From contig NZ_JAILNU010000030.1 in the NCBI RefSeq assembly GCF_024691275.1, forward strand, positions 1 through 64,000: a stretch of 64,000 nucleotides of DNA, written 5' to 3'. The position numbers and the translations under genes are program-made. Every line of letters begins with the position of its first letter. The stretch's first letter is position 1. The notes below the pieces were generated by a model. That model was given only the letters and a program-made list of their open reading frames with translations, did no database searches and was not told where the DNA came from. Of the stretch, positions 4,390 to 64,000 are shown piece after piece. Source of the DNA: Ruminococcus sp. (GTDB lineage: Bacteria; Bacillota; Clostridia; Oscillospirales; Ruminococcaceae).

Positions 4390-4418
4390 TGTAGGGGCGA
4401 ACACTGAGCGCCCCTACA
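4390..4418. repeat. REP-like hairpin, symmetric
   Basis: TGTAGGGGCG and CGCCCCTACA form a perfect 10-bp stem around a 9-base loop, with a GTAG foot on both strands. It sits just past the 3' end of gpr (minus strand) and may also end its transcript. Confidence 0.7.
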
Positions 4419-17011: not shown

Positions 17012-18139
17012 TCATCTTTCGATACCCGTCTTATATTCTTTGATGAGCTTGCCGTCCTCGTCTATTTCGGCGATGCAGTTCCAGAAGGCAGCCGAACCGC
17101 CGCTGACAAAGAGCTTGTCACCAATACAGCAGACGCGGGAGATGTAGTCACATTTAGTGAGCTTATCCGCGCTGAATATTTTTTCAGCCTTTCCGTTTTT
17201 ATCAAGAGAATAGACATTTGTAGCGTCTGCGAAGAATATTTTCTCGTCCGATATGCAGAAGTCCGAGCATCTTTCGTCGGTGAGCTTTTCCTCGTCGCCG
17301 CCGCCGAGTGGTTTTTTGTAGAGGTCGGATACACGGGTATAGTAGATATCATCTCCCGAAATATAGGCATTGCTGCCTGATATGACATCATCTGAGAAGC
17401 CGTCGCTGTCCACAGCGATGATATTTTCGGAAGTGCCGATATAGTATCCGCAGACCATGCATGACCTGCCGTTCACCTCGGAAATACCGATTATGCGGGC
17501 ATTTTTATGATCGACGGAGAAAACTTCATCGGTGAGCTTTCCCGAATAGTCCATAGACCTTATCTCGGTGCTCTCATCGTCCGACGAAGCGAAGTATATC
17601 TTGTCCTTGGTGAAAAGGAACTCCTCGCGCTCGGGGATATCGCCGTCAGAGGTAACAGTCTCCTTATTGAGCTTGGAAGTTTTGCCGTCGCTGTATTCGC
17701 ACAGTCCGTCCTCGGGAGCGTAGAAATAGAGCTTCTTGCCGTCCGAGTAGTAGACGCGGCTTTTCTCAGGGAGCTTCAGCTCCGTGGGTTCGCCCTTGCC
17801 GTCGTCGCTGACATAGGTCTCAACAGGGCCGTCGGAGCCGTTTCTTATCATGGGGTAGACATAAGCGCCGTCGTCCATGACAAAGAGTATCTGGGAGCGG
17901 TTCTGCGGATTGACTTCCTCCTGATCGGGGAGATCGGCGAAGGTCACAGTCTTTTTCACTGACTTCTTTTCGGTTTTTTCAGCCTTTGTAGTCGTTTCGG
18001 CAGTTTTTTCCTCAGATCCCGTGGTATATTCGGTGCTTTTCTCGGCATCGAAGTCCTTCGAGTTGTTATCTGAGCAGGCGGTAATGGAGGGCGCTGCGAG
18101 GAGCGCCCCTATAAAAGCCGCAGTAATACGGTACTTCAT
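17012..18139 (-). CDS. Lipoprotein with propeller-like (DUF5050-type) repeats
   Basis: This is a predicted surface lipoprotein of 375 aa. The signal peptide ends ITAC near residue 22 and is followed by a Thr/Lys/Glu-rich linker. From about residue 80 there are repeated units of the form 'I(Y/F)F....(D)...I......G', for example KIYFASSDDESTEI, DIYYTRVSDLYKKPL and KIFFADATNVYSLDKNG, which is the pattern of DUF5050/beta-propeller lipoproteins in Firmicutes. The ATG overlaps the stop of paaK (TGATG), so it is translationally coupled to that gene. Function is unknown. Confidence 0.8.
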   Translation of the reverse strand: MKYRITAAFIGALLAAPSITACSDNNSKDFDAEKSTEYTTGSEEKTAETTTKAEKTEKKSVKKTVTFADLPDQEEVNPQNRSQILFVMDDGAYVYPMIRNGSDGPVETYVSDDGKGEPTELKLPEKSRVYYSDGKKLYFYAPEDGLCEYSDGKTSKLNKETVTSDGDIPEREEFLFTKDKIYFASSDDESTEIRSMDYSGKLTDEVFSVDHKNARIIGISEVNGRSCMVCGYYIGTSENIIAVDSDGFSDDVISGSNAYISGDDIYYTRVSDLYKKPLGGGDEEKLTDERCSDFCISDEKIFFADATNVYSLDKNGKAEKIFSADKLTKCDYISRVCCIGDKLFVSGGSAAFWNCIAEIDEDGKLIKEYKTGIER

Positions 18140-54557: not shown

Positions 54558-54684
54558 ATTCCGAAACATAGATGTGCAGGCTTGCTGCGGCACACAACAC
54601 GCACCGCTTAATGCTGCTCGGTCTCCCGCCTGACATGGTTCACGGGGTCTTGTTGCACAGGGCCCACACATCTATATTCCGGAA
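54558..54684 (-). ncRNA. ffs: Signal recognition particle RNA, small bacterial type
   Basis: The minus strand carries the conserved SRP core, GAACCATGTCAGGCGGG then AGACCGAGCAGCATTAAG, whose apical stem is CGG-GAGA-CCG. The ends pair: ATTCCGGAATATAGATG at the 5' side (from 54684) with CATCTATGTTTCGGAAT at the 3' side (to 54558), followed by T5. The length of about 127 nt and lack of an Alu domain fit the small type. The GNRA loop is GAGA, where GGAA is the usual sequence. Confidence 0.92.
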
Positions 54685-61571: not shown

Positions 61572-62186
61572 TTACTTTTCGCCTTTCAGTTCATGCTGGG
61601 AAATAATGAGCCTGATAGAATCATACAGGTATGGTTTGAGCTTGTCCAACGAGCACGGTTCCTTATACAGGATAGCCGAATAGCAGGTAGAGCTGACGAG
61701 CTCGATTATCATAAACAGCATTATCTCGGGGTCGCGGAAGCCGTTCGGTGATTCTTCGAGCATATTGTAGTATACCTCTGCGAAATTAATATCATCTTCC
61801 GATACAGGAGAGGTTATTGCGTTCTTGAATATGCCCCAGCTCAGGTTCTTGGAAATAAAAGTCAGGAGTGACTGGTTGTTATTGAGCTGATTTACGATAT
61901 TATCGACGATTTTTATGATCTTATCTTCAAAAGGAATGTCATCGAGTTCACTTCCGAGCTCGTTCAGCGCGGTCTTGAACAGCAGACTTGATTTATGAGA
62001 CACAAGTTTATTGCGGATATCGTATTTATCCTTGAAATACAGATAAAAAGTTCCTTTTGCAACACCCGCTTTGCTTACGATGTCGGTTATGGAAGTCTTA
62101 CTGAAGCCCTTTGTCGTAAAGAACTCAAAGGCAGTTTTCAGCAGTGAGCTTTCTTTAAGCTTTTTATTTGTATCGACCTTTCCCAT
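61572..62186 (-). CDS. TetR family transcriptional regulator
   Basis: This 204-aa regulator has an N-terminal TetR helix-turn-helix (about 15-60) with FTTKGFSKTSITDIV and AGVAKGTFYLYFKDKYD, which is the family signature. The C-terminal ligand domain is unassigned. AAAGGTG precedes the ATG. It is divergent from an MMPL-type transporter, and three TGACY-N3-RGTCA palindromes in the shared region are the probable operators, one overlapping the transporter promoter. The usual logic would be repression of the transporter until a ligand binds. Confidence 0.92.
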   Translation of the reverse strand: MGKVDTNKKLKESSLLKTAFEFFTTKGFSKTSITDIVSKAGVAKGTFYLYFKDKYDIRNKLVSHKSSLLFKTALNELGSELDDIPFEDKIIKIVDNIVNQLNNNQSLLTFISKNLSWGIFKNAITSPVSEDDINFAEVYYNMLEESPNGFRDPEIMLFMIIELVSSTCYSAILYKEPCSLDKLKPYLYDSIRLIISQHELKGEK

Positions 62187-62231
62187 TTTTACACACCTTT
62201 CCGCTGGCTAACAACTGATTTGCTTGTATTT

Positions 62232-62260
62232 ATTATAGCCCGAAAAACAGAGCCTGTCAA
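62232..62260 (-). promoter_or_regulatory. tetR promoter
   Basis: On the minus strand -35 TTGACA (62255-62260), 17-bp spacer and -10 TATAAT (62232-62237). Operator 1 lies 12 bp upstream of its -35. Confidence 0.85.
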
Positions 62261-62271
62261 GGGCGTAAAAT

Positions 62272-62370
62272 TGACCAATGGTCAAGGTAAATCCTGCCGC
62301 TGTTTGTGCAACCATACAAAAATATGACCGAAAGTCATTTTTTAACGTTTCAAGTGTTGACTATCAGTCA
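62272..62370. promoter_or_regulatory. Three TetR-type operators
   Basis: TGACC-AAT-GGTCA (62272-62284), TGACC-GAA-AGTCA (62325-62337) and TGACT-ATC-AGTCA (62358-62370) share the form TGACY-N3-RGTCA. Centre spacings are 53 and 33 bp. The third overlaps the transporter -35. Confidence 0.78.
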
Positions 62371-62385
62371 TTTTTGTAATATACT
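62357..62385 (+). promoter_or_regulatory. MMPL transporter promoter
   Basis: -35 TTGACT (62357-62362), 17-bp spacer and -10 TATACT (62380-62385). Operator 3 covers the -35 and the start of the spacer. Confidence 0.82.
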
Positions 62386-62391
62386 ATGAAA

Positions 62392-62542
62392 TAACAAGAG
62401 AAACGGGCGTATATTGTAAGTCCGTGAAGTCTGTGTTAAGCTTTCTGTTTTCCCAGGCAGGATCGCATATTTCTCCTAAAGGTATCCTTGGCTCGCGGAC
62501 TTTCAATATACGCTCGGAATTTATCAGGAAAGGAACGATAAT
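62392..62542 (+). other. Structured leader RNA of the MMPL transporter
   Basis: The leader of about 150 nt has GCGTATATTGTAAGTCCG (62407-62424) pairing with CGGACTTTCAATATACGC (62496-62513) at 17 of 18 positions, closing a 71-nt internal region with a smaller AGGAT/ATCCT stem. No T-tract follows, so it is not an intrinsic terminator. No known riboswitch family was recognised. Confidence 0.55.
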
Positions 62543-64000
62543 ATGCTGAAATTCGGTGAATGGATAGCAAAGCACAGAGGTCTTATCCTCGTTTTTGGTG
62601 TGCTTATGCTGATCCCTTCGGCGATCGGGTTCGTGAATACCCGTGTAAACTATGATATTCTTTCTTATCTGCCGAAGGATATAAATACAATGATAGGTCA
62701 GGATATTCTGAAAGATGAATTCGGACAGGGCGGCTTCTCCCTTGTGATGCTCGAAGGCATGAGCGACAAGGACGTTGCGGCGACTGCCGATAAGATCGGG
62801 AACATCGACCATGTTTCAAGTGTAGTCTGCTACCAGTCGCTTACAGACTGCAAGATACCTATGGAGATACTTCCCGACAATATCCACGATTTCTTCAATA
62901 AGGGCGATACCACTATGATAGCGGTATTCTTTGACGATACGACTTCCGCAGACGGCACTCTTGATGCAGTTGAGGAAATGAGGAACATTACCTCAAAAGA
63001 GTGCTTCATAAGCGGAATGTCAGCAATAACTCTTGATATGAAGAAGCTCACACAGAGCGAGACTCTCATATACGCAGTTATTGCAGTCATACTCACGAGC
63101 ATAGTTCTTATGCTCACCATGGATTCCTTCCTTATCCCTGTATTCTTTATGCTGAGCATAGGATTTGCAGTAGTCTGGAACCTTGGTTCAAACATCGTAC
63201 TTGGCGAGATATCCTTTATCACACAGGCTCTTGCAATGGTATTGCAGCTGGGCGTTACGATGGACTACTCCATATTCCTATGGCACAGCTACAAAGAGCA
63301 GCAGAACTACTACCCCGAAGACAGACAGGAGGCTATGGCACACGCTATAGCAGCTACCATAACATCAGTTGTAGGAAGCTCGTTCACAACAGTTGCAGGC
63401 TTCCTTGCAATGTGCTTCATGACATTCACACTTGGTCTTGACCTCGGCATCGTAATGGCAAAGGGCGTTGTATGCGGCGTTATCTCCTGCGTAACAGTTC
63501 TCCCTGCAATGATACTCATATTTGATGCGGCTATCGCAAAGACCTCACACAAGGATTTCCTCCCGAGCTTCTCACGTACATCATCATTCATCGTAAGAAA
63601 CTCATGGATATTCCTTACAGCTGCGATCGTAGTTCTTATCCCTGCACTCTACGGCAATAACAACTACGGTGTGTACTACAAGCTGGACAGCACGCTCCCC
63701 GCTCATCTCGACAGCGTTATCGCCAACACAAAGCTGGCTGAGGATTACAATATGAACAGCACGCATATCCTCATGGTAAAGTCGGATATGACCGCAAAGG
63801 ACGCAAACAAGATGCTCAACGAGATAAACAATGTTGACGGCGTTCAGTTCACGATGGGCTTCAATTCACTGGTAGGCTCGGCTATACCGGAGGAAGTCGT
63901 TCCACAGGAATTAAAGAGCATACTCAAGAGCGACAAGTGGCAGCTCATGCTGATAGGCTCTGAATATGAAGTAGCTTCCGATGCGGTAAACGCACAGGTA
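62543..64000 (+). CDS. MMPL/RND-type membrane transporter (3' end cut by window)
   Basis: The frame starts MLKFGEWIAKHRGLIL at 62543 with AAAGGAAC 8 bases upstream and stays open to the window end (486 codons). After the first membrane helix (about 13-31) comes an extracytoplasmic domain (NYDILSYLPKDINTMIGQD onward). A block of helices follows (YAVIAVILTSIVLMLTMDS, then LGVTMDYSIFLWHSY with the conserved MDYS motif of MMPL/RND proteins). A second half begins near residue 345 (FIVRNSWIFLTAAIVVLIP). It is probably an exporter of a lipid or hydrophobic compound under control of the divergent TetR. The substrate is unknown. Confidence 0.9.
   Translation, partial: MLKFGEWIAKHRGLILVFGVLMLIPSAIGFVNTRVNYDILSYLPKDINTMIGQDILKDEFGQGGFSLVMLEGMSDKDVAATADKIGNIDHVSSVVCYQSLTDCKIPMEILPDNIHDFFNKGDTTMIAVFFDDTTSADGTLDAVEEMRNITSKECFISGMSAITLDMKKLTQSETLIYAVIAVILTSIVLMLTMDSFLIPVFFMLSIGFAVVWNLGSNIVLGEISFITQALAMVLQLGVTMDYSIFLWHSYKEQQNYYPEDRQEAMAHAIAATITSVVGSSFTTVAGFLAMCFMTFTLGLDLGIVMAKGVVCGVISCVTVLPAMILIFDAAIAKTSHKDFLPSFSRTSSFIVRNSWIFLTAAIVVLIPALYGNNNYGVYYKLDSTLPAHLDSVIANTKLAEDYNMNSTHILMVKSDMTAKDANKMLNEINNVDGVQFTMGFNSLVGSAIPEEVVPQELKSILKSDKWQLMLIGSEYEVASDAVNAQV

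Follow-up and report, generated by a model that had tools for sequence, protein, structure and literature searches.

In the Ruminococcus flavefaciens group, the TetR-regulated gene of an MMPL-family exporter is preceded by a long-stemmed element that probably has a function in control or stability. We propose that it is a structured 5′ leader RNA, specific to this clade and acting in cis, most likely by way of mRNA decay or processing; the chances of this mechanism, stabilisation of the message from its 5′ end, appear to us evenly balanced, an estimate that also covers whether the element functions at all. It would represent an undescribed, selectively maintained leader RNA of an efflux gene in one of the major fibre degraders of the rumen. 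Close relatives share the TetR promoter whether or not they have the element, and thereby offer a natural comparison for the gain, keeping and loss of a leader structure.

The gene pair and its leader

The window, i.e. the whole stretch of 64,000 nucleotides that was analysed, comes from Ruminococcus sp. (assembly GCF_024691275.1, contig NZ_JAILNU010000030.1, positions 1-64,000, forward strand). It contains a tetR-family gene divergent from an MMPL-family gene (Table 1). The two genes adjoin in 29 of the 30 relatives examined by tblastn, and in the exception (L047) a contig end lies close by. The MMPL gene starts with ATG at 62543. Judging from the promoter, its transcript would begin near 62392, a predicted rather than mapped position about 12 nt before the stem, so that the MMPL message would include the element as its 5′ leader.

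Table 1. Positions of genes, promoter signals and leader parts in the window
Feature	Position	Strand	Basis or remark
tetR-family regulator gene	61572-62186	-	divergent from MMPL gene; PF00440, E 4.8e-13
tetR promoter TTGACA-17-TATAAT	62232-62260	-	12/12 consensus match
TetR-type operator TGACCAATGGTCA	62272-62284	.	regular position, about -85 from the -35 box, in most orthologues
TetR-type operator TGACCGAAAGTCA	62325-62337	.	regular position, about -32, in most orthologues
MMPL promoter TTGACT-17-TATACT	62357-62385	+	overlaps operator TGACTATCAGTCA at 62358-62370
P1, 5′ arm of basal stem	62404-62427	+	folding, repeat search, covariation
P2, small hairpin TTCTGTT(TTCCCA)GGCAGGA with conserved UUUCC(C) loop	62443-62462	+	comparative
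Conserved segment TTTCTCCTAAAGGTAT	62470-62485	+	1 change/98 sites over seven disjoint pairs
P1, 3′ arm of basal stem	62493-62516	+	folding, repeat search; slower-evolving arm
Shine-Dalgarno (SD) region AGGAAAGGA	62526-62534	+	outside stem; mean unpaired probability 0.80
MMPL-family transporter gene	62543-64000	+	PF03176, E 2.3e-26; runs past window end

A repeat search recovered the two arms of an imperfect stem (24 nt each, 88% complementary, 65 nt between them), which takes up the greater part of the leader that runs from the MMPL promoter to the ribosome site. The 18-bp stem with one mismatch around 71 nt described in an earlier note on this DNA is the central part of this longer stem. The segment 62392-62542 folds with a minimum free energy (MFE) of -50.1 kcal/mol; 200 dinucleotide shuffles average -33.3 +/- 3.4 (z -5.0), and none of them reached the native value. 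Inner hairpins are present but weak on the window sequence alone, and support for P2 comes mainly from relatives.

The Rfam search proposed in the earlier note gave no match at the gathering score for 62190-62600; when the threshold was relaxed to E<=10, only eukaryotic families at chance level appeared. Elsewhere in the window, positions 54571-54669 on the minus strand match the bacterial small SRP RNA (RF00169) with 62 bits.

Distribution, anatomy and constraint

We searched 125 genomes of the genus by DNA and by covariance model; in 16 of them, all of the R. flavefaciens group, the element precedes the MMPL gene, always between the -10 box and the SD and in conserved orientation. In three genomes (G001, G020 and G043) it occurs at a second, unrelated locus as well. 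No further copies were found in the 125 genomes, which leaves one or two per carrier, and the single-arm pattern matches examined lacked the second arm. A set of 398 genomes drawn from the family yielded no element beyond chance, viral contigs no match, and plasmids short, weak matches only. A scan of GTDB species contigs returned only R. flavefaciens YAD2003, YL228, MA2007 and ATCC 19208, together with one Ruminococcus MAG.

The 19 copies share a common plan, composed of the basal stem P1, the hairpin P2 with its UUUCC(C) loop, the segment UCUCCUAAAGGUAU and, in some lineages, a further hairpin P3. P1 has the form CGGGCGCATATTGAA-n-GTCCGYG plus its complement, usually with one unpaired position mid-stem; it measures 24-26 bp and the spacing of its arms varies from about 62 to 111 nt. 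Among P1 cells 92.3% are paired, and seven pairs have changed on both sides, compared with 0-2 when the partners are slid. Double-change cells number 23, versus 7.1 in shuffles and 0-4 with slid partners. The covariation analysis of orthologous leaders suggested in the earlier note thus gave a positive answer for P1. In P2 the loop is kept while the stem varies (CTGTTT/AAACAG, CTGTCTT/AAGACAG, ATCTGTT/GACAGAT, AGCTTT/AAAGCT), which lends moderate covariation support; single-sequence folds of P2 are not always better than shuffles. In three leaders (G068, G015 and G070) the core diverges, reading CCCTAAAGAG, and a clear P2 is missing. By eye, pairing between the UUUCCC loop and the SD is inconsistent between species.

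The element changes slowly. Among the 15 leaders examined, the mean pairwise divergence of 0.465 at fourfold-degenerate sites of the MMPL gene compares with 0.15 for the P1 arms and 0.10 for the promoter. When species are compared in seven disjoint pairs, 321 of 1499 fourfold sites have changed (21.4%), as against 18 of 287 positions in the P1 arms (6.3%, p 7e-11), with 6 of 140 in the right arm, and a single one of 98 in the conserved segment (1.0%, p 6e-9). Compared with the fourfold-degenerate sites, arms and segment evolve more slowly by a factor of 3-20, which excludes a recently dead insert. For the second locus the figures are 0.20-0.38 for fourfold divergence and 0-1 changes in the arms, although its upstream flank is fairly conserved too. 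Such rates indicate that the element is under purifying selection; they do not distinguish RNA from DNA as its target. Taken with the P1 covariation, the 16 orthologous leaders and the lack of an Rfam match, they agree with the earlier description of an unassigned structured leader RNA.

In P1, G.U combinations occupy 24 cells and A.C combinations 14, a moderate difference without clear excess, so that selection on the RNA strand is unproven for this stem. The stem is moreover conserved in sequence itself, beyond pairing, which would fit recognition as DNA too. The arms might then be inverted sites to which a second regulator binds, downstream of the promoter, and it is in keeping with this that the right arm has been kept where the left one drifted (G001, G020 and G014) and that the leader in an outgroup clade has a third TetR operator in the corresponding region. 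We nevertheless consider an action of the arms as DNA improbable, given the compensatory changes in P1 and P2, the conserved single-stranded core between the arms and the variable spacing of the latter.

Proposed mechanism and competing readings

In the 5′-stabiliser mechanism that we prefer, the nascent leader would fold, its 24-26 bp basal stem closing a small domain with P2, the single strand that carries the conserved segment and, in some species, P3, and leaving the ribosome site free downstream. Being close to the 5′ end, the stable stem may limit or direct ribonuclease attack and in this way set the life of the mRNA, while the conserved core could be the part recognised by a trans-acting factor; conservation of this core suggests recognition by a protein or a ligand. 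Control at the level of the leader would be added on top of TetR repression.

No terminator was found in the MMPL leader, and in ensemble predictions the SD region is unpaired in all 15 element-bearing leaders (0.59-0.94). Together these results disfavour premature termination and SD sequestration and leave the standard switch of a riboswitch unsupported. They also qualify the "second, RNA-level control" that had been suggested for this leader: it remains plausible, but both observations weigh against its usual forms. The predicted layout, with a stable stem near the 5′ end and a free SD, is instead that of a 5′ mRNA stabiliser. Stem-loops that stabilise mRNAs from their 5′ end, including the leader of Bacillus subtilis aprE, have been reviewed (PMC7509114). 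The aprE leader and the Escherichia coli ompA 5′ UTR likewise have a stable stem at a short distance from the 5′ end and a ribosome site free downstream; they differ from the present leader, in which interior and stem are conserved in sequence, the stem is longer and the effect on stability is a prediction.

The same core lends itself to a reading as an orphan riboswitch, in which the P2 loop and UCUCCUAAAGGUAU would form a binding site within P1 and a ligand would alter MMPL expression. An unpaired core conserved inside a covarying frame of variable length, upstream of an exporter gene, is what such a leader would present, and other orphan structured leaders and riboswitch candidates are similarly clade-conserved, with covarying stems, a conserved unpaired core and a transporter gene downstream. 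Here, in contrast, there is no Rfam match and no recognised expression platform (the absent terminator and open SD argue against a standard one, although other platforms are possible), and the distribution is narrow, being confined to one species group and one main target gene. We therefore regard a ligand-binding leader as fairly unlikely. A translated leader peptide is far less credible. An open frame does span the leader in the window and overlaps the MMPL start, and in one frame the conserved segment would read SPKG, but the frame is stopped or shifted in most relatives, and these broken, unconserved frames largely refute the idea.

Gain, loss and possible origin

Of the two refuting conditions set in the earlier note, the lack of covariation did not materialise; as for the other, the stem is indeed missing from many relatives that have the same gene pair. 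In a tree of 30 MMPL genes, monophyly of the element-bearing leaders is rejected (AU p 1e-11), yet all of them fall within a 20-gene MMPL clade (support 99) that has five members without the element. One gain and about four losses would be the simplest history, which we prefer; several gains are also allowed. Absence from these five members and from all more distant relatives seen indicates that the element is dispensable, not essential. Distant relatives keep the tetR/MMPL promoter, and their leaders are mostly short or contain a third TetR operator.

Several observations would fit a palindromic mobile repeat of MITE or REP type, or its remnant, with no role in the mRNA. Empty leaders of the same clade resemble near-precise excisions that left the base of the stem (CAG|CTG in G076, ACGG|ACCG in G105), with no clear target-site duplication; the element occurs at a second, unrelated locus, where G105 shows a deletion between TTTCAAT repeats; and a hairpin repeat of the form TAGGGGCG-N-CGCCCG is present in 68 of the 125 genus genomes, with up to about 150 copies each. 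Each P1 arm resembles one unit of this repeat (best 15/21, shuffle p ~1e-4, in a comparison chosen post hoc). Against a mere repeat stand the one or two copies per genome, which are neither multiple and dispersed nor evidence of an active pool, and the slow change of arms and core despite strongly diverged synonymous sites. Like MITE- or REP-like families, among them the TAGGGGCG repeat of the genus, the element is built from inverted repeats, is present or absent at orthologous sites and shows weak arm similarity, but those families have dozens of copies per genome, whereas the element is scarce, fixed in position and orientation and strongly constrained in sequence. Similarity of the second copies also passes beyond the left arm to the -10 region: TACTATGAAATA, upstream of the left arm at the second locus, occurs at nearly the same distance in the MMPL -10 region (mononucleotide shuffles, p ~0.001 for two copies and 0.02-0.04 for the third). 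A repeat devoid of function is thus, in our judgement, unlikely. The earlier suggestion of a remnant of an inserted element is disfavoured as an account of the present state, in which arms and core evolve slowly; as an account of origin it is possible, in view of the arm-repeat similarity and the deletion at the second locus. The element may have arisen by insertion of a pair of TAGGGGCG repeats and been recruited later. If this origin is true, a palindromic repeat has been recruited as a regulatory RNA. Intergenic copies of the TAGGGGCG palindrome also lie in the window at 2656-2663, 4392-4416 and 18104-18111 (e.g. TAGGGGCGGATATTATCCGCCC).

The second-locus copy follows a PF06541-domain gene at a distance of about 60 nt; in two genomes it is flanked by convergent genes and so does not form a leader there. 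The locus has a weak promoter-like match, TTGAAA-16-TACTAT. Together with the -10-region similarity, this is suggestive of a copied unit that may include the -10 region and of a second copy that may have its own transcription. A bolder proposal, which we hold to be a long shot, would see in the element a new class of RNA, particular to the R. flavefaciens group, that arose from an inserted palindromic repeat, senses a ligand or binds a protein, and serves as exporter leader at one locus and as a small RNA with its own promoter at the other. In G043, the PF06541-type gene beside the second copy (L132) has an in-frame TAG near its presumed start, and is possibly a pseudogene or has been assigned a wrong start.

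Other leaders of this gene show structures of their own. Two long-stem leaders, L144 (G071) and L143 (G026), share CCGCAG..CTCCTTCT..CTGCGG and have otherwise different stems. Their homology to the element is unproven, as the model gives G071 only 6.8 bits (E 8.7) and does not list G026; they may represent an independent or older leader RNA. The MMPL leader of G051 (L054) contains an insert of about 160 bp with the ends GAGCCTGTTCAG and CTGAACAGGCTC, which is absent from its sister L053 and constitutes another MITE-like insertion at an MMPL leader. Both sister leaders possess a segment, TCTCCATAAAAGGTAC, that resembles the conserved TCTCCTAAAGGTAT and is followed by a hairpin, without P1.
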